A stretch of 64,000 nt of DNA from Humibacter sp. RRB41 (GTDB taxonomy: Bacteria; Actinomycetota; Actinomycetes; Actinomycetales; Microbacteriaceae): the NCBI RefSeq assembly GCF_022761015.1, contig NZ_JAKWJQ010000004.1, positions 186,001-250,000 of the forward strand. The letters are read 5' to 3'. The notes under the pieces are model-generated. The model did no database searches. It was not told the origin of the DNA and was given only the letters and a program-made list of their open reading frames with translations. Positions 6,638 to 34,269 of this stretch are shown here, piece by piece. Every line of letters begins with the position of its first letter. Position 1 is the stretch's first letter. The translations under genes were made by a program, and so were the position numbers.

Positions 6638-8101
6638 GTGACCGATCCGAACCTCGCCATCATCGTGCTCGCCGCCGGCCAGGGCACCCGCATGAAGTCG
6701 TCGACCCCCAAGCTGTTGCACGAGCTGGCGGGTGCGCCGATCGTCAGCCATGTGCTCGCGACGGCCGAGGCGCTCGATCCGTCCGTCGTGCTCGCCGTGG
6801 TGCGGCACGAACGCGATCGTGTCAGCGACGTGATCACCGCCGCGGTTCCGCACGCCGTGATCATCGACCAGGATCACGTTCCCGGCACGGGCAGAGCGGT
6901 GGAGCAGGCGATCCACGATCTGCCGGACGGCTTCACCGGCGAGGTGCTCGTGCTCAACGGCGACGTTCCGTTGCTGGATGCCGACACCCTGCGCGACCTC
7001 GTCGAGCGCCACCGCAGCAGCGGAGCGGCGGCCACCGTGCTGAGCAGCGTCGTGCAGGATGCTTCCGGTTACGGCCGCATCGTGCGCGTCTCCGACGGCG
7101 CGTTCGACCGCATCGTCGAGCACAACGACGCGACGGCCGCGGAGCTCGCCATCGACGAGATCAACGCGGGCATCTACGTCTTCGGCGTCGGCGCGCTGCG
7201 CGACCAGTTGGCGAACCTCAGCACCGACAACGCGCAGGGCGAGAAGTACCTCACCGACGTGATCGAGCTCCTGCGTCGCGCGGGCAGCGACGTGAGCGCC
7301 GTGCCGGTCACCGACTCGTGGAAGGCCGAGGGCATCAACGATCGCGCCCAGCTCAGTGAGGCGGCCGCGAGGCTCAATGCGCTCATCGTCCGCGGCTGGC
7401 AGCTGAACGGCGTCACGGTGCAAGACCCAGCCACCACGTGGATCGACCTCACCGTCACGCTGCAGAACGACGTGACGATTCTGCCTGGCACGCAGCTCAA
7501 GGGCGCGACGACCGTGGCGAGGGATGCCGTGGTCGGCCCCGACACCACCCTCGTCGACTGCGAGGTCGGCGAAGGTGCGACCGTGAAGCGCACGGACGCG
7601 ACGCTCGCGGTGATCGGTGCTCGGGCATCCGTCGGACCGTTCTCGTATCTGCGGCCAGGGGCGGTTCTCGACGAGAACGGCAAGATCGGCACGTTCGTCG
7701 AGGTGAAGAACTCGCACATCGGCGCCGGCAGCAAGGTGCCACACCTCAGCTACATCGGCGACACGACGATCGGCCGTCGTGTCAACCTCGGCGCCGGAGC
7801 GATCACGGCGAACTACGACGACCTCGCCAAGCACCGCACCGAAATCGGCGACGAGGTGCACACGGGCTCGCACAACGTCTTCGTTGCGCCCGTTAGGATC
7901 GGAGACGGCGCGAAAACCGGAGCCGGAGCCGTCGTCCGCAAGGATGTCCCCGCCGGCGCCCTGGCACTCAGCGTCGCCCCTCAGCGCAACATCGAGGGAT
8001 GGGTCGAGAAGAACCGACCGGGGACGGGGGCGGCGGGTGTCGCTGCTCAGGCCCGGTCCGCACAGAAAGCGGACGATGGGACGCAAGGACAAGACGGTTG
8101 A
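6638..8101 (+). CDS. glmU: Bifunctional GlmU (glucosamine-1-P acetyltransferase / GlcNAc-1-P uridyltransferase)
   Basis: GlmU makes UDP-N-acetylglucosamine for peptidoglycan in the cytoplasm. The protein has 487 residues. The N-terminal nucleotidyltransferase motif is LAAGQGTRMKSSTPKLLHEL (residues 11-30), and the C-terminal half is a left-handed beta-helix of hexapeptide repeats, with the catalytic-loop segment SYIGDTTIGRRVNLGAGAITANYD. The GTG start at 6638 has AATACT 6 bases upstream. The acidic and Ala-rich C-terminal tail overlaps the prs start by 26 nt, so the two genes are co-transcribed. Confidence 0.97.
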   Translation: MTDPNLAIIVLAAGQGTRMKSSTPKLLHELAGAPIVSHVLATAEALDPSVVLAVVRHERDRVSDVITAAVPHAVIIDQDHVPGTGRAVEQAIHDLPDGFTGEVLVLNGDVPLLDADTLRDLVERHRSSGAAATVLSSVVQDASGYGRIVRVSDGAFDRIVEHNDATAAELAIDEINAGIYVFGVGALRDQLANLSTDNAQGEKYLTDVIELLRRAGSDVSAVPVTDSWKAEGINDRAQLSEAAARLNALIVRGWQLNGVTVQDPATTWIDLTVTLQNDVTILPGTQLKGATTVARDAVVGPDTTLVDCEVGEGATVKRTDATLAVIGARASVGPFSYLRPGAVLDENGKIGTFVEVKNSHIGAGSKVPHLSYIGDTTIGRRVNLGAGAITANYDDLAKHRTEIGDEVHTGSHNVFVAPVRIGDGAKTGAGAVVRKDVPAGALALSVAPQRNIEGWVEKNRPGTGAAGVAAQARSAQKADDGTQGQDG

Positions 8102-9110
8102 TCTCGACCGGGAACGCGGAATAGCTCCAGGCATCGTCGCCAAGACGAAGAAGCGGTTGGTCGTCGCCTCCGGCAGGTCGCACATGGCACTGGCCATCGA
8201 GGTGGCCAGTTCGCTCGGGACCGAGCTCGTGCCGACCGAGTACCGCACGTTCGCATCGGGTGAGATCCTCACCAGGTTCGAGGTGTCGATCCGTGGGTGC
8301 GATGTCTTCCTCATCCAGTCGTTCGGCCCGCCGGTCAACGAGTGGCTCATGGAACTGCTCATCATGCTGGATGCCGCCAAGCGTGCGTCCGCGAAGCGGA
8401 TCACCGTTGTCGCTCCCTATTACCCGTACTCCAGGCAGGACAAGAAGGGTCGCGGCCGCGAACCGATCAGCGCGCGGCTCGTGTCCGATCTGCTCAAGAC
8501 CGCCGGTGCCGACCGCGTCATGACGCTCGACCTGCACGCTGCGCAGATCCAGGGGTTCTTCGACGGCCCCGTCGACCACCTCTTCGCGAAGCCGGTTCTG
8601 CTCGAGTACTTCAAGCAGACCCTTTCGCCCGAGGACCGCGAGAATCTCACCGTCGTGTCGCCGGACACCGGCCGCGTGCGCGTCGCCGACCAGTGGTCGG
8701 ACAGCCTCGGCGCGCCGCTCGCGATCATCCACAAGCGCCGCGACCCGAACGTGGCCAACAAGGTCACTGTGAACGAGATCGTCGGCCGCGTGCGTGGCAG
8801 GGTGTGCCTCCTCGTCGACGACATGATCGACACCGGCGGCACCATCGTGAAGGCTGCAGAGGCGCTGAAGGAGAATGGCGCGGAGCGCGTCATCGTCGCA
8901 GCGACCCACGCGGTCTTCAGCGATCCGGCGACGTCGCGGCTTCAGGACGACTCGATCGACGAGGTCGTCGTCACCGACACGATTCCGGTCCCGGCGGAGA
9001 AGCGCTTCCCGGGTCTCACCGTGCTGCCGATCGCTCCGCTGCTGGCGCGCGCGATCCACGAGGTCTTCGAGGACGGATCGGTCACGTCGATGTTCGACGG
9101 CGCCGCGTAG
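8076..9110 (+). CDS. prs: Ribose-phosphate pyrophosphokinase (PRPP synthetase)
   Basis: This enzyme makes PRPP from ribose 5-phosphate and ATP for nucleotide, His and Trp synthesis. The protein has 344 residues. Motifs are YPYSRQDKKGRGREPIS (ATP flexible loop), DLHAAQIQGFF and the PRPP-binding loop LLVDDMIDTGGT. The open frame extends far upstream inside glmU, but homology begins near TKKRLVVASGRSH, so the ATG at 8076 is chosen. That start gives a slightly long N-terminus and a 26-nt overlap with glmU. The adjacency glmU-prs is widely conserved. Confidence 0.96.
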   Translation: MGRKDKTVDLDRERGIAPGIVAKTKKRLVVASGRSHMALAIEVASSLGTELVPTEYRTFASGEILTRFEVSIRGCDVFLIQSFGPPVNEWLMELLIMLDAAKRASAKRITVVAPYYPYSRQDKKGRGREPISARLVSDLLKTAGADRVMTLDLHAAQIQGFFDGPVDHLFAKPVLLEYFKQTLSPEDRENLTVVSPDTGRVRVADQWSDSLGAPLAIIHKRRDPNVANKVTVNEIVGRVRGRVCLLVDDMIDTGGTIVKAAEALKENGAERVIVAATHAVFSDPATSRLQDDSIDEVVVTDTIPVPAEKRFPGLTVLPIAPLLARAIHEVFEDGSVTSMFDGAA

Positions 9111-27502: not shown

Positions 27503-27682
27503 TCAGACCGTGGCTCGGCGGGCTGGCCTGAACCACCGCACGTGCCTCGACCGTGCGGATGCCTGGGGTTTCGACCCGGACGGAACCGAGGCCGCGGGAT
27601 AGATGCGCCCGTCGGGCGCCACGATCAACTCCGGCAACCCGCCGGGGACCTCGTTCGGCAGCGGAGGATGCTGACCGGTCAT
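27503..27682 (-). CDS. Possible small protein upstream of the CHAT locus (59 aa)
   Basis: An ATG at 27682 opens 59 codons ending at TGA 27503-27505. The N-terminal half (HPPLPNEVPGGLPELIVAPDGR) is Pro-rich and protein-like, and the C-terminal half is basic. It reads away from the 37-residue peptide gene. There is no Shine-Dalgarno sequence and no known family, so it may be chance in GC-rich DNA. The rest of the 325-bp gap after pth holds the palindrome at 27736 and a mini-ORF. Confidence 0.35.
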   Translation of the reverse strand: MTGQHPPLPNEVPGGLPELIVAPDGRIYPAASVPSGSKPQASARSRHVRWFRPARRATV

Positions 27683-27735
27683 CGTCGGGTTTTCTGATCA
27701 CGGCTCATGTTTATGAGGAGTTCGGAATTCCCGTC

Positions 27736-27751
27736 CTGATACACGTATCAG
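27736..27751. promoter_or_regulatory. Palindrome upstream of the peptide/sigma/protease operon
   Basis: CTGATAC and GTATCAG face each other across AC, giving a 7-bp inverted repeat immediately before the AAGGAGG site. It is a candidate operator or the upstream part of the operon promoter. No regulator is identified for it. Confidence 0.5.
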
Positions 27752-27763
27752 AAGGAGGTCCGC

Positions 27764-27796
27764 GTGCTCCTTATTCGTGGGAAGGACACACCATGA
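27764..27796 (+). CDS. Possible 10-codon leader mini-ORF coupled to the peptide gene
   Basis: GTG at 27764 follows AAGGAGG (27752-27758) at good spacing. It reads MLLIRGKDTP and stops at TGA 27794-27796, which overlaps the next ATG (27793). The strong ribosome binding site belongs to this mini-ORF rather than to the 37-residue peptide. It may serve to deliver ribosomes by coupling. Coding status is uncertain. Confidence 0.4.
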   Translation: MLLIRGKDTP

Positions 27797-27906
27797 CAGA
27801 CACCGAGCGCGCGGACGCGTCGATCGACGAGGACGTGCGAGCGAGCATCCTCGCCCGCATCATTCTCGAAGAGACGCAACCCATCACTATCATTCAGCCG
27901 GCGTGA
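27793..27906 (+). CDS. 37-residue peptide heading the sigma/subtilisin/CHAT locus
   Basis: The peptide is acidic at its N-terminus (DTERADASIDEDVRAS), then amphipathic (ILARIILEE), and ends TQPITIIQPA. GGAAGGA precedes the ATG. Its stop overlaps the GTG of the sigma factor gene (GTGA), so translation is coupled. No family is recognised. Small size, first position in the operon and proximity to two proteases suggest a substrate, signal or inhibitor peptide; this is inference. Confidence 0.6.
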   Translation: MTDTERADASIDEDVRASILARIILEETQPITIIQPA

Positions 27907-28538
27907 CCGTCTTGCAGCAGCTCAGCCCACGGGCCACAGTGGTGTCTATGGGGGCTGGTGAGTCCGCGGAGGCATCCGTTCGTCCGGCGTACGCCGTGGC
28001 AGCGGATGCCTTCCGTTCCTGGTTGGACGGTGACCGCGACGCGATGACGACGCTCGTGCACGCCATGAACCCGATTCTCTGGCACGTGGTGCGCGCCTAC
28101 CGCATCGACGAGACGACGGCGAAAGACGTCCTACAGGAGACCTGGGTGCGCTTCGTTCACGGTTACGCGGCGATCGATGACCCGACAGCGGTCGCCGCGT
28201 GGCTGACCGTGACCGCGCGCAGAGAGGCGTGGCGCACGGTCAAACGGTCGGATCGCGTGTCGCCTTCCGACCTCGACACCCTGGAACCCCGCCTCGGTGC
28301 CAGCCCGTCAGCCGAAGACGCTGCCGTCACAGCGATTTCGAGCGCCGAGTTGTGGCGTAGCGTTCTCACCCTCCCCGAACGCTGTCAACGACTGCTGCGC
28401 ATCATCGCCTTCGATGACAAGCCCGACTATCGCCGCATCGCCGAAGAGACCGGCATGCGCATCGGCAGCATCGGCCCGACCCGATCCCGCTGCCTCGACC
28501 GACTCCGTGCCGCCCTCACTGCAGGAGAGACCCGATGA
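27903..28538 (+). CDS. Sigma-70 family RNA polymerase sigma factor (ECF-like)
   Basis: The protein has 211 residues from the GTG at 27903, or 196 from the ATG at 27948; neither has a clear Shine-Dalgarno. Sigma region 2 is ETTAKDVLQETWVRFVHGYAAI with the -10 recognition helix AVAAWLTVTARREAWR. Sigma region 4 is LPERCQRLLRIIAFDDKPDYRRIAEETG followed by the -35 helix SIGPTRSRCLDRLR. Only two sigma domains are present, as in ECF factors. Its stop overlaps the next start (ATGA). It probably drives this locus, itself inferred from its position. Confidence 0.9.
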   Translation: MTVLQQLSPRATVVSMGAGESAEASVRPAYAVAADAFRSWLDGDRDAMTTLVHAMNPILWHVVRAYRIDETTAKDVLQETWVRFVHGYAAIDDPTAVAAWLTVTARREAWRTVKRSDRVSPSDLDTLEPRLGASPSAEDAAVTAISSAELWRSVLTLPERCQRLLRIIAFDDKPDYRRIAEETGMRIGSIGPTRSRCLDRLRAALTAGETR

Positions 28539-28993
28539 ACTCCGTGAACCTCGATGACCGCCACGTGTTGACCGCCTTGCGGCAGATGTGGGAGCGACGC
28601 GATCCAGCTCCGGCCGACCTCGATGCGCTTGCACTCGAAGCGGCCGAGCGCGCCGCGCTCGATGACGAGCTCATCGTGCTCGAGCTGCTCTCCGAGACGC
28701 TCGAGTTCGAGAACGTGCGAGGTGGGGAGCGCACCCTGCGCTTCGTGTCGCACGGCTACGAGGTGCTGCTGCGCATCGTGCGGGAGCCGGACGGCTTCCG
28801 CGTCGACGGTTGGAGCACGCCGGCGACCTCGGGCGTCGCACGTATCGACGTCGACGGACGCGAACGCACCACGGCAGCGGATGACGTCGGCCGGTTCGCC
28901 TTCACCGGTGTCGGCCCCGGACGTGCCACGGTCTCGCTGGCCGTGGCATCCGATTCGGCGCCGGTCTGGGCGACCTCGTCGTTCGCGCTCTGA
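28535..28993 (+). CDS. Small protein with carboxypeptidase-regulatory-like domain, in sigma factor operon
   Basis: The protein has 152 residues. The N-terminal 55 or so are acidic and helical (ALEAAERAALDDELIVLELL). The rest is beta-rich, ending in SGVARIDVDGRERTTAADDVGRFAFTGV, reminiscent of carboxypeptidase regulatory-like (transthyretin-type) domains. There is no signal peptide or membrane segment. ATGA overlap couples it to the sigma gene, the usual place for an anti-sigma factor, but it lacks a zinc-binding anti-sigma motif. A regulator of the sigma factor or an adaptor for the proteases is possible. Confidence 0.7.
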   Translation: MNSVNLDDRHVLTALRQMWERRDPAPADLDALALEAAERAALDDELIVLELLSETLEFENVRGGERTLRFVSHGYEVLLRIVREPDGFRVDGWSTPATSGVARIDVDGRERTTAADDVGRFAFTGVGPGRATVSLAVASDSAPVWATSSFAL

Positions 28994-29075
28994 TCTTCAC
29001 TGCTCTTCAACAGCTGTACCCGCACGGCCGCCGTACCCGAAAACCGGCTGCCGCGTCAGATCGAGAGGATCCACC

Positions 29076-30743
29076 ATGACCGAGAACTCGCACGCACGGC
29101 CGGTTCGCCATGTGCGGCATTGGAAACCGCAGACGCCACCCGCCGAGGCGAGCACGCTGACCGCGGAGACGGCCAAGGCGATTCCGGTGCCGGGTGTCGT
29201 CGCGCATCCGACCGTGTACGCGCCGGATCAGCTCCTCGTCTCGACGCTCGGTGACGTGGACGGAACGCTGGATCTGCTGTCGCAGGCGGCTGCGACATTC
29301 GGGTGGGAGGTGCCGCGAGACGATGTGGTCTCGGTCGCCCATCTCGACGAGGACGACGATGCCCGCTCGCGACGGGTGAAGACCCACTCCTGGGCGACCG
29401 GACCTCTCGGTGCGAAGCGTGTCGCCATCGTTCCCGGTGCGAGCAGCACGCAGGCGCCGAACGCGTGGCTCGTGCTTCAGAAGGCACGGATGCTCGCGCC
29501 CGGCAACGCGCTGCCTGGCGTCGGGCTGAACCACGTGCTGACGGTGGGGACGCCGTACGGTCGTACGAACCCGTTCGAGAGCGCAGATCCCTACGGTCGC
29601 ACGAACCCGTACGGAAGGACCAACCCGTACGGCCGCACCAATCCGTACGGCCGCACGAATCCGGCGACGGGCGACTACGGCGCCGTGGACGGCTATGCCT
29701 TGCCTGGCACGGGCGGATTGCAGCCCATCGCGGTGACTCTTCCCGCACCGGCCCGAACCGTGAGGGATTCGCGGAGCGTTGTCGGCGTGCTTGATAGTGG
29801 ATGCGGCCGCCATCCGTGGTTCGACGGACGCGATGGCGACAGCGTCGTGGAACGCAACGTCGGGGTGAGGTTGACCGATGGAACCATCAGGCCGATCGGG
29901 TACACGGATGCGAAACATGACAGTGAGGTGCATGGCGACGTCACAGGCCCGCTGGATGGCGCGCTCGACCCGGTCGCAGGACATGGAACCTTCATCTCCG
30001 GACTGGTTCACCAAGCGAGTCCAGATTCGAATATCATCGCCTGGCGCATCGTCGAGCCAGACGGGACCGTCGGGGAGGACGAACTGCTCGATGCATTGTC
30101 CGGCGTGGCAAAACTCGTGACCGACGATGCGGAGGGCAAGGGGGGCAAGCGGCTCGATGTGCTCGTGCTCTCCCTTGGCTATTACCACGAGACTCCGGAA
30201 GACGGTCTCTACGACATCACGTTGTACCAGCTGCTGTCTGCCATCGGGCACACAGGCACGGTCATCGTCTGCTCTGCGGGCAACGACGCAACGGATCGGC
30301 CGCAGTTTCCGGCCGCCTTGTGGGATTGGTCGGGTTCAGACGGACAGACCATCGTCCACCCGGCAGCCGAGTCGACGCCCATCATCTCCGTTGGCGCGCT
30401 CAACCCCAATGGCAGCATCGCACTCTTCAGCAACGACGGACCCTGGGTGCGTACGTGGGCGCCAGGGGCCGCCGTCGTCAGCACGATGCCGCCGCTCAAC
30501 GGCGGGTACAACGCGGCGGGCTCGCGTCGATTCGAGGGATCGCTCAGATCGTCCATAGACCCTGACGACTTCCGCGGCGGATTCGCGGTGTGGAGTGGCA
30601 CGTCATTTTCTGCCCCTGTCGTGGCAGGACGCATGGCAGCGGCGTTGGACGAACTCGGCGACGCGAACACGCCGGCGGAACGACGGGCAAGGGCCGCACA
30701 GGCCGTCGATCGAGTGCTCGCCGACGTGCCGACTCGTCACTAA
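29076..30743 (+). CDS. Intracellular S8 (subtilisin-like) serine peptidase with PYGRTN repeats
   Basis: The protein has 555 residues. The catalytic triad is visible: Asp240 in VVGVLDSGCG, His303 in AGHGTFISGL, Ser510 in WSGTSFSAPVVAG, with the oxyanion Asn403 in SAGND. Residues 1-230 form an N-terminal region without a secretory signal, including an I9-like or novel propeptide part and five PYGRTN units (160-196). No transmembrane segment is present, so it probably acts in the cytoplasm. GAGAGGA precedes the ATG. It lies between the sigma operon and the CHAT gene. Cleavage of the peptide or of the CHAT protein is inference. Confidence 0.9.
   Translation: MTENSHARPVRHVRHWKPQTPPAEASTLTAETAKAIPVPGVVAHPTVYAPDQLLVSTLGDVDGTLDLLSQAAATFGWEVPRDDVVSVAHLDEDDDARSRRVKTHSWATGPLGAKRVAIVPGASSTQAPNAWLVLQKARMLAPGNALPGVGLNHVLTVGTPYGRTNPFESADPYGRTNPYGRTNPYGRTNPYGRTNPATGDYGAVDGYALPGTGGLQPIAVTLPAPARTVRDSRSVVGVLDSGCGRHPWFDGRDGDSVVERNVGVRLTDGTIRPIGYTDAKHDSEVHGDVTGPLDGALDPVAGHGTFISGLVHQASPDSNIIAWRIVEPDGTVGEDELLDALSGVAKLVTDDAEGKGGKRLDVLVLSLGYYHETPEDGLYDITLYQLLSAIGHTGTVIVCSAGNDATDRPQFPAALWDWSGSDGQTIVHPAAESTPIISVGALNPNGSIALFSNDGPWVRTWAPGAAVVSTMPPLNGGYNAAGSRRFEGSLRSSIDPDDFRGGFAVWSGTSFSAPVVAGRMAAALDELGDANTPAERRARAAQAVDRVLADVPTRH
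29553..29663 (+). repeat. PYGRTN-encoding 18-bp repeats in the subtilisin gene
   Basis: Five units encode PYGRTN. The first is separated from the rest by PFESAD, and the last four are contiguous 18-bp repeats ending at NP. Synonymous differences among units (cgtacg, cgcacg, aggacc, cgcacc) show that the amino-acid sequence rather than the DNA has been maintained. Confidence 0.9.
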
Positions 30744-30796
30744 GTGATACCTCGGCTCGTAGCGCGGCCGATCCTGGGGCACGTCATAATCTAAGG

Positions 30797-33271
30797 ATGC
30801 TCAGCGCGCTCGAGTTGTACGACCGAGGGGTCGTGCTCTCCAACGCGGGAAAGCACGCGGCGGCGAAGCGAATCCTCAACGAAGCAGCGGAGCGCACGAC
30901 TGAGGTGAACCTGCGTGCGCGCATCCTCGGCACCTTGGCATGGGTCCTTCTCGATCTGGGAGCCATCGATGAGGCGGACCGGCTGTGTCGTGAAGCGCTT
31001 GGCATTCGAGGTCTGCGTGAGGACACTCGCGCCGTTCTGTGGGGCCAGCACGGAGTGGTCGCAATGGGGCGAGGCGACCTGAATGAAGCCCTACGTTTGC
31101 TGACCCAAGCGTCGAAACGACTGGACGATCCCGTCTTGGCAGGGACCGTTGCCATGAATCGCGGCAACACGCTACTCGAGCTCGGACGATCCGATGAGGC
31201 GCTCACCGATTTCGGCGATGCGGCTCGTCTGCTGCATTCGGCAGGCCTGCGTGACGACGCGGCGAAAGCCACGCATAACCAGGGGTATGCGGCGTTGCTC
31301 TCCGGTGATCTGGTCTCCGCACTGCGGTACATGGACGCAGCGCGGTCGCGGGCGGCGGCTGCATCGCCGGTGGACGCTGCGATCGGCGACGTCGACCGCG
31401 CGGAGGCGTTGTTCGCTGCTGGGATGCCGTTCGAGGCCTCCGCTGCGCTTGCCGCTGCTGCAGCGGTTTACCGCGCTCGACGACTTCGGCTCCGCCAGGC
31501 CGATGCGGTTTGGCGGCGAGCTCGTTCGATGCTGTACTTCGACCCGGTCGCTGCCGCGAAACTCGCACGGTCTGCCGGTCGGCTCTACGAATCGCACGGA
31601 AACGAGGTGGGCGCCCTGCGGGCGCTGGCCGTCGCACTTCGCGCTGATGTCGCGGCCGGCGGCCATTCGCAGCGTCTTCTTGAAGACCTCGAGAGCGTGA
31701 CTGCTCAGCTGACACGGCATCGCCTGAGGGAGGATGCCGGCGACCTGCGGCTCGTCGCTCAGCGGGTGCGAGTGCGGCGGGGTGGGGAGTCTGCAGCGCG
31801 TGAGGCGCTTCGAGGCATCCGTGTCTCATCCGACGCTCCCATCGCGCGACGAGTCATGTCTCGCGAAGTGCGCGCAGAGGCCGCCTCGGTGCTCGGCGAT
31901 GACCGCCGGGTGGTTCGGGAGGCGGCCCGCGGCCTGGAGGAACTCGCGCAATGGCAGGCGGTCTTCCGCTCGGTGGACCTGCAAACAAGTACGGCCATGC
32001 ACGGCCAGGCACTGACGAAGGTGGGCATCGCCGCCGCGTTCAGGTCACGTGACGTCCGGAACATGTTCGAGTGGTCAGAACGAGCCCGCAGCGTCGCGAG
32101 CCATTCGGTGGTGCCCCGGCCACCGTCAGACCCGAGAACGGCTGCCGATCTGGCCGAACTGCGTGGGCTGCGGCTCTCCGGCACGTTCGGAACGAGCGAG
32201 CAGCGACGTGAGGCCGAACTGCGCGAACGCATCCGCAGCCGCCAGTGGGCGACGACGGGTGAGGGCGTGGTGGCGCAGTTCGCCTCGATGGACGAGGTGC
32301 AGTCATCCCTCGGCGATCGCACGGTGCTGCTCGCGTATCTCTGGTCAGGCCAGCGCCTTGTCGCGCTCGTCTTGGAGCAGGATGCCTCTCGCACCGTTGA
32401 GTTGCGCCCGGATCAGTTCGGCACGGCGGAGCGCGCCGCACTCTTCGCCGACCTCGATGTGCACGCGGCGCGGATCGATGGTGCGCTGGGGGAGGCCGTC
32501 GCCAGGTCGGTGTCGAACCGACTGTCTGCGCTCGACGAGCTGCTCATCGCTCCGGCGATGTCAGCGTCCGAACGTCTGCGGGACGGCGGCACCCGGGTCG
32601 TCGTGGTCGCCCCCGGGATTCTGGCGGGCGTGCCGTGGTCGATGCTCGACGGGGTGGCCGGACGACCGCTGACCGTGCCCCTTTCCGCCACCAGGTGGCT
32701 CGCCGAGCGGGGGGCGCACGACGAGGCCCGATCGCATGGGCCGGCGGGATTCGTGGCGGGGCCGCGTGTTCCCCGCGCCGACGAGGAGGTGGCTCGGGCG
32801 GCATCCGTGTGGACGGGTGCCACGGTGCTGCGAGGTGAAGCGGCAACGACGGGTGCGGCATCCGAGCTGGCGGCGGCCGTCGAGGTCTTCCACGTGACCG
32901 GGCACGGCAGGCACGCCGCCGACAACCCGCACTTCTCCGGTATCGAGCTGGCGGATGGCCCGTGGTTCGGCTACGACATCGAGCGGATCGAACGGATGCC
33001 GTCGACCGCCATCATCTCCGCGTGCGAGCTGGGCAGGTCATCCATCGGCTGGGGGCACGAGGCCCTCGGCATGGCGCGAACGTGGCTGCACGCCGGAGCA
33101 CGCAGCGTGATCGCCTCGCCGGTCAGCGTGAACGACGACGACGCGTGCGAAGTGCTGAGCGCCATGCACGCGAGGCTCGCGACCGGGACTGCCCCTGCAG
33201 TGGCGCTCGCCGAAGCGACGAGCGCCACCGGCATCACAGCGCCGTTCCTGAGCTACGGCGCAGGCTGGTAG
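30797..33271 (+). CDS. TPR-CHAT protein (caspase-like protease)
   Basis: The protein has 824 residues. Residues 1 to about 420 are helical TPR-like repeats (for example AMNRGNTLLELGRSDEALTDFGDA). The CHAT domain occupies roughly 520-824, with the caspase-type dyad visible as His703 in FHVTGHGRHAADN and Cys743 in IISACELGRSS. There is no signal peptide or membrane helix. CHAT proteins are caspase-related peptidases used in bacterial conflict and death systems. CATAAT (30785-30790) lies 6 bases before the ATG, so this gene may have its own leaderless promoter. The subtilisin gene ends 53 bp upstream. Confidence 0.92.
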   Translation: MLSALELYDRGVVLSNAGKHAAAKRILNEAAERTTEVNLRARILGTLAWVLLDLGAIDEADRLCREALGIRGLREDTRAVLWGQHGVVAMGRGDLNEALRLLTQASKRLDDPVLAGTVAMNRGNTLLELGRSDEALTDFGDAARLLHSAGLRDDAAKATHNQGYAALLSGDLVSALRYMDAARSRAAAASPVDAAIGDVDRAEALFAAGMPFEASAALAAAAAVYRARRLRLRQADAVWRRARSMLYFDPVAAAKLARSAGRLYESHGNEVGALRALAVALRADVAAGGHSQRLLEDLESVTAQLTRHRLREDAGDLRLVAQRVRVRRGGESAAREALRGIRVSSDAPIARRVMSREVRAEAASVLGDDRRVVREAARGLEELAQWQAVFRSVDLQTSTAMHGQALTKVGIAAAFRSRDVRNMFEWSERARSVASHSVVPRPPSDPRTAADLAELRGLRLSGTFGTSEQRREAELRERIRSRQWATTGEGVVAQFASMDEVQSSLGDRTVLLAYLWSGQRLVALVLEQDASRTVELRPDQFGTAERAALFADLDVHAARIDGALGEAVARSVSNRLSALDELLIAPAMSASERLRDGGTRVVVVAPGILAGVPWSMLDGVAGRPLTVPLSATRWLAERGAHDEARSHGPAGFVAGPRVPRADEEVARAASVWTGATVLRGEAATTGAASELAAAVEVFHVTGHGRHAADNPHFSGIELADGPWFGYDIERIERMPSTAIISACELGRSSIGWGHEALGMARTWLHAGARSVIASPVSVNDDDACEVLSAMHARLATGTAPAVALAEATSATGITAPFLSYGAGW

Positions 33272-34168: not shown

Positions 34169-34269
34169 TCAGGGCTTTCGCCTAGATTCGTCGTGGTTCG
34201 ACCGCCAGGTCGCTCCCCGGACGAGAAGCGCCGTACCCGGATCCGACGACGACGCTGCCGGAGGGCAAC

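Follow-up and report, generated by a model that had tools for sequence, protein, structure and literature searches.

In CASP, the system of type III-E CRISPR also known as Craspase (Csx29, Csx30 and CASP-sigma), the TPR-CHAT protease Csx29 cuts Csx30 and thereby controls an ECF sigma factor, according to the sections available from PMC10028731. In the RRNPPA family (Rap-Phr, AimR-AimP), TPR receptors read pheromones of 5 to 10 residues, sometimes repeated in the precursor, and each receptor is specific for its own peptide, as described in the available part of PMC11343458. ECF sigma genes with TPR and peptidase genes as neighbors have further been reported in the vicinity of TRADD-N/EACC2 proteins (extracts of PMC8195603), while the extracts of PMC8103513 and PMC13118837 add nothing on CHAT.

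We analyzed a stretch of 64,000 nucleotides from the genome of Humibacter sp. RRB41 (the window) and found a locus that resembles several of these systems. As in CASP, a TPR-CHAT gene stands by an ECF sigma gene and a possible sigma inhibitor, and the putative sigma motifs lie within the locus itself (for CASP, sections of PMC10028731); unlike CASP, the locus encodes an S8 zymogen that carries a hexapeptide array, and the Humibacter sp. RRB41 genome gives 0 matches to the RAMP model (PF03787) expected for Cas7-11 (gRAMP), with which the control responds in 4/14 cases. The likeness to RRNPPA consists in a short, repeated peptide and a TPR domain that may be specific for it (for RRNPPA, sections of PMC11343458), whereas here the repeats are part of a protease with no evident signal peptide, the CHAT protease itself carries the TPR, and a pairing of TPR and peptide is suggested by co-variation. 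In the TRADD-N/EACC2 loci, too, ECF sigma genes occur with TPR and peptidase genes (extracts of PMC8195603), but no such adaptor domain is among the Pfam hits here, and Pfam may have no models for them. The locus thus does not belong to CASP, is not evidently a member of RRNPPA, and may work like both. No description of this gene composition was found in open PMC papers; an ECF group with such a context may be in print. We give a probability of roughly 0.4 to the reading that the locus forms a self-regulating switch of two proteases, in which the CHAT TPR would read the array in the S8 protease, the beta-domain protein would be an anti-sigma factor and the sigma factor would use a promoter-like motif of the locus.

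All five genes of the preliminary description were found again in the sequence, at the places and with the GTGA and ATGA overlaps that it gave. Peptide, sigma and beta genes are linked by 4-nt overlaps on the forward strand: the gene for a 37-residue peptide (27793-27906) overlaps an ECF-type sigma gene (27903-28538) by GTGA, and this overlaps the gene for a small beta-domain protein (28535-28993) by ATGA. They are followed on the same strand by the gene for an S8 (subtilisin-type) protease with a prodomain (29076-30743) and by the TPR-CHAT gene (30797-33271). The upstream neighbor is what we take to be a peptidyl-tRNA hydrolase-like gene and the downstream one an alpha/beta hydrolase gene. 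The sigma factor belongs to the ECF class, with the sigma70-ECF model matched over regions 2 to 4 (TIGR02937, residues 47-205, 56.8 bits against a cut-off of 42.9; Sigma70_r2, 35.9 against 24). The S8 protein matches Peptidase_S8 with 75 bits (curated cut-off 21.8), and the last protein matches CHAT with 71.7 bits (cut-off 24) and four TPR models above their cut-offs; with its TPRs, CHAT domain and catalytic His and Cys, it is of the TPR-CHAT class. The highest 19-residue Kyte–Doolittle mean across the five proteins was 1.53 in a crude scan run with no signal-peptide predictor, and the same crude scan gave no hydrophobic N-terminal stretch in S8; the preliminary description had seen neither signal peptide nor membrane segment in the two proteases. 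While the genes and active sites of that description stood, it had overlooked a hexapeptide array within the S8 gene (29553-29663) and a pair of promoter-like motifs (about 27714-27772), and its peptide turned out to be lineage-specific. Elsewhere in the window, a Guanidine-III riboswitch was found at 34194-34258 on the forward strand (43.8 bits; gathering score, 36).

The conservation of the operon was studied with an alignment of seven S8 proteins as the query, which matched 59/396 genomes of the order. With this query only, we fetched the best 80 of 561 loci, mainly from Microbacterium and Nocardioides and also from Cellulomonas, Flexivirga and others, so that the remaining genes of the operon provide an independent test of co-occurrence. 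In 76/80 loci (best 80 of 561), sigma, beta, S8 and CHAT genes stood in that order on one strand, and the check for chance co-occurrence did not refute the preliminary description: the co-occurrence is not due to chance. The exceptions among these best 80 of 561 were one locus starting at a contig end (L120), one without sigma and beta (L090) and two without sigma (L138 and L144); in the latter three, the promoter-like motif stood directly before the remaining part of the operon. A CHAT query matched 18/99 related genomes, including that of Humibacter sp. RRB41, and among 20 stretches around its matches, six contained all four proteins (L026, L027, L028, L031, L032 and L042), although their gene order varied; sigma, beta and CHAT were also found together in other stretches of this set. 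A plasmid search with an E limit of 1e-30 gave a single match among 72,556 records, in which 59% of the query aligned at 33% identity. One locus carries tandem S8 genes in one operon (L079:5223-6878 and 6836-8524), both of which contain an array (PFGKTN in one and PFTRTN in the other).

The catalytic residues, too, are kept, and the check for their loss did not refute the preliminary description. The S8 active site, described as intact, has D240, H303, N403 and S510, presumably including the catalytic residues, invariant in 45 aligned sequences. The CHAT His and Cys, likewise described as intact, are present in 74/82 rows, the other 8 comprising 7 truncated where the fetched stretch ends and 1 with a split frame. 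The latter gene (L112:8601-11113) lies in two reading frames, by frameshift or sequencing error.

The beta-domain protein is coupled to the sigma factor by gene position. With start codons chosen by script, beta start and sigma stop shared a 4-nt overlap in 48/76 loci and lay within 17 nt of each other in 74/76 (both among the best 80 of 561). Its sequence matches CarboxypepD_reg only below the threshold (18.7 against 32.3), and its model (mean pLDDT 85.8, pTM 0.60) consists of two helices and a beta sandwich. Searched against the PDB as a possible Csx30-type sigma inhibitor, the protein gave no significant structural match, Foldseek finding none at E<=0.001; the best VIA-align Z score, 9.3 to CrdA, concerns the sandwich only and is just above the range called common. 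From the position of the gene and the analogy with CASP, the beta protein is a candidate anti-sigma factor.

The operon is headed by a promoter-like motif, first spotted by eye in translated upstream sequence and then read in the DNA. In the window it reads CGTATCAG-N15-CTCCTT (27744-27772, forward strand; GTATCA at 27745) and precedes the peptide, sigma, beta, S8 and CHAT genes. A pattern of GTATCA-N16/17-CTC was found before the sigma gene in 69/76 loci and was absent in 7/76, and a second copy stood within 1000 nt after CHAT in 58/72 loci with enough sequence and was absent in 14/72 (all among the best 80 of 561). The background rate elsewhere in the 80 loci (best 80 of 561), 0.011 per 330 nt, is an overestimate because second copies were counted in. 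Across the Humibacter sp. RRB41 genome, the loose motif gave 15 matches against 8 for a backward control, and the strict form TGTATCAG-N15/16-CTCCT gave 11 matches in 10 related whole genomes against 1 control match. As 8 of these 11, placed by coordinates, were at the operon, the regulon looks local, and we infer that the motif is used by the sigma factor of the same locus. Two genomes with S8 (G328 and G383) had zero strict matches. In another genome (G156), strict matches were found off the S8-bearing contig at C39:29426-29460 and C129:598-625, one of them an overlapping palindromic pair. A gene for a Tle1-like phospholipase (PF09994, 206.8 bits) lies elsewhere in the Humibacter sp. RRB41 genome (L157:1552-2763; contig C1 near 530384), 51 nt behind a weaker motif match, and is a putative regulon member.

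What stands behind the second motif copy differs between lineages. In the window, the two copies are back to back, one leading into the operon and the other, TGTATCAGG...CTCCTC (27714-27743, reverse strand), into a divergent ORF of 59 aa (27503-27682, reverse strand); a locus from another genome of the same genus (L026) is arranged alike, and its ORF shows 50% identity over 56 aa. The 59-aa ORF gave no PHROG or Pfam match. Several Nocardioides loci have a protein of about 100 aa behind the second motif (e.g., L085:11171-11470), for which Pfam gave no match. A chagasin-like reading of this protein found no Pfam support. In Microbacterium-type loci, the second motif is followed by conserved sequence with no evident shared reading frame, and an alignment of 15 sequences after CHAT produced a branched consensus structure with 31 pairs, 8 of which show changes in both partners. 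Since the folding of single sequences was mixed (six sequences, z from +0.21 to -6.03), the element stays a candidate structured RNA only; no Rfam match was found at the gathering threshold in the six sources searched. G-rich loops were seen in the candidate RNA at L111:11254-11404 and its equivalents just after CHAT in Microbacterium-type loci, and at L113:11890-12030.

The preliminary description regarded the 37-residue peptide or the sigma partner as a possible substrate of a proteolytic cascade. The peptide gene does follow the promoter-like motif and overlap the sigma start, and the C-terminus of the product, TQPIT[IV]I, is conserved in the sister genome (L026), which has the only recognizable relative. 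A DNA motif for this C-terminus matched 14/299 genomes of the family, where the control gave 4 matches, but in 12 of these 14 the translation was that of another protein. The peptide was thus found in 2/299 genomes and neither by motif in the other 297 nor in the other loci examined. We therefore reject it as a core part of the system, and a role as substrate or switch appears highly improbable. Of the earlier proposal, the two proteases under a dedicated sigma factor fit the operon found in 76/80 loci (best 80 of 561), the retained catalytic residues and the mainly local motif; the peptide as a general component or substrate does not. A proteolytic switch has become more plausible, and its key appears to lie in the hexapeptide array and the CHAT TPR rather than in the peptide.

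The S8 protein is a subtilase with a prodomain by structural alignment of its model, which aligns over its whole length, as prodomain and catalytic domain, with PCSK9, pro-Tk-subtilisin and unprocessed pro-subtilisin E (Z 21.4-22.5), beginning at residue 44-50. The prodomain covers about residues 44-157 (29205-29546); unlike those zymogens, the protein has a variable hexapeptide array at the junction, and its prodomain has no Pfam I9 match by sequence. The array falls within residues 160-220, where the model has low confidence, and in the window consists of five copies of PYGRTN, one of them apart from the others. The unit varies from lineage to lineage, other loci having units such as PFTRTN, PYGKTN, PLHDSN, PHNRPN, PFDVSH and PWEVPH, giving the consensus P-[FYHL]-x-x-[TGSP]-[NH], and all 80 loci (best 80 of 561) carry an array by a permissive score. 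We counted 47 unit strings in 85 arrays; among 42 distinct hexamers written with P first (one of them, PNPFHT, probably wrongly rotated), position 2 was F, Y, H or L in 38, position 5 T, G, S or P in 41 and position 6 N or H in 36. Two of the loci found with the CHAT query (L028 and L032) are without an array and a third (L027) has an irregular one, and all three still have CHAT. A hexapeptide motif common to target proteins was also considered and rejected, as PYGRTN occurs 5 times in the genome, always within S8. Comparison with known defense systems gave weak subtilase and IetS matches only, and membership in the IetAS anti-phage system (IetS/IteS) was rejected, S8 scoring 10.1 bits with the NCBIfam model against a cut-off of 900 and giving weak partial PADLOC matches (best E 4e-7). 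A phage family search gave a generic protease match for S8.

The units within an array are mostly uniform in protein and not in DNA. The counted units showed no amino-acid difference in 79/85 arrays, which were detected by such identity; because of this the pN is biased low, and we relied on the synonymous measure instead. Synonymous difference among units averaged 0.53, where random synonymous codons drawn from that gene would give 0.61, with 60/85 arrays above 70% of the expectation and 3 below 30%. Such near-saturated synonymous difference together with identical protein indicates that most arrays are old copies held identical in protein, and some, e.g., L148 and L151, show a recent duplication of a two-unit block. 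This pattern bears on a CRISPR-free logic like that of CASP, in which CHAT would cut the beta protein and free the sigma factor, S8 would be a regulated effector and the array would serve as a spacer or hinge. The coupling of sigma and beta in 74/76 loci (best 80 of 561) and the CASP precedent (sections of PMC10028731) agree with it, but a spacer need not keep its copies identical in protein while the codons drift to near saturation, nor need it track the CHAT TPR as described below, and we consider this alternative improbable.

To relate the array unit to the rest of the operon, we used 67/82 loci with a P-anchored six-residue unit and complete genes, less L082, L089, L106 and L151, leaving 63. 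A profile of the N-terminal part of CHAT matches TPR proteins over residues 3-185. Over all pairs of the 63 loci, unit distance tracked CHAT residues 1-100 and 101-200 beyond sigma, beta and the S8 catalytic domain (partial r 0.386 and 0.301); the values were 0.212 for CHAT 201-300, 0.255 for 701-824, negative for 401-700 and 0.285 for beta. To limit shared ancestry, we then compared 31 pairs with nonoverlapping tree paths, of which 12 shared their unit and 19 differed in it, and obtained nominal P values of 0.001 for CHAT 1-100, <0.0005 for 101-200, 0.003 for the S8 catalytic domain and 0.087 for the prodomain, the others being above 0.15. When divergence was controlled and labels were shuffled within strata, the effects for CHAT 1-100 and 101-200 were 0.218 and 0.193 (nominal P = 0.0002 each) and those for the halves of the S8 catalytic domain 0.105 and 0.117 (nominal P = 0.0005 and 0.0012). 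Smaller effects were seen for CHAT 201-300 (0.059, nominal P = 0.029), 301-400 (0.078, P = 0.008) and 501-600 (0.051, P = 0.02) and for sigma (0.048, P = 0.012), and none for CHAT 601-821. The extra change with the unit is largest at about CHAT residues 1-160, inside the TPR part, and the co-varying residues 1-200 correspond to 30797-31396 in the window. All 12 same-unit pairs are non-Nocardioides, so that clade and label are mixed.

The co-variation has a partial explanation in the way the units appear to change. Between L113 and L122, synonymous change rises from 0.20 in sigma and 0.27 in beta to 0.66-0.76 throughout S8 and into the first eighth of CHAT; it is 0.55 in the second eighth and 0.28-0.46 thereafter. 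A similar jump is seen between L096 and L146, while between L085 and L092 the block begins after the prodomain and ends at about mid-CHAT; L100/L103 and L088/L093 show weaker blocks, and L095/L132 is ambiguous. The four same-unit pairs with unsaturated flanks gave no comparable block. A change of unit thus often goes along with the replacement of one DNA stretch that contains the array, the S8 catalytic domain and the CHAT TPR between conserved ends, and as S8 and the start of CHAT are then replaced as one block, linkage explains part of the co-variation. The array could then concern S8 alone, as a tandem self-inhibitory or self-cleavage segment fitted to its own active site, the TPR changing by hitch-hiking because recombination replaces the beginning of the CHAT gene along with S8. 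The place of the array at the junction of prodomain and enzyme, the change of the S8 catalytic domain with the unit and the extension of the synonymous blocks from S8 into CHAT in several pairs all speak for this. Yet the prodomain, which adjoins the array, changes less with the unit (0.064, nominal P = 0.20) than the TPR, which argues for function besides linkage, and once Nocardioides-type loci are removed (leaving 22 pairs, of which 10 differ in unit), only CHAT 1-200 of the five regions remains significant (0.094, nominal P = 0.012). We regard an array concerning S8 alone as somewhat unlikely.

In the two-protease switch that we prefer, the sigma factor would use the promoter-like motif at the head of the operon and the beta protein would hold it as an anti-sigma factor. 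The CHAT TPR would bind the hexapeptide on the S8 zymogen, such that the proteases pair only if the code matches. A trigger would let one protease process the other, most likely by CHAT cutting at or near the array and freeing S8, and one protease would remove the anti-sigma factor and thereby raise production of the system. Precedents are CASP, which combines TPR-CHAT with an anti-sigma and an ECF sigma factor (PMC10028731), and RRNPPA, where TPR receptors go with short peptides that can be repeated (PMC11343458), as far as the available sections of these papers go. The array may further be part of a peptide recognition code, a pro-signal in the subtilisin zymogen read by the TPR of the caspase-like CHAT, with array, S8 and TPR swapped jointly as a specificity cassette flanked by conserved ends, in the manner of self/non-self or pheromone systems; we find this rather unlikely on the sequences at hand. 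Released hexapeptides might even act on neighboring cells after lysis.

The comparisons suggest a lock-and-key switch between two proteases, so far undescribed, and the candidate RNA behind CHAT offers a second lead. If true, the proposed switch would extend the TPR-CHAT and sigma logic of type III-E CRISPR to a CRISPR-free system and would provide a testable case of a peptide and its reader changing together without loss of function. If the TPR reads the array, common Actinobacteria would possess a protease-to-protease switch whose specificity is legible in six residues.
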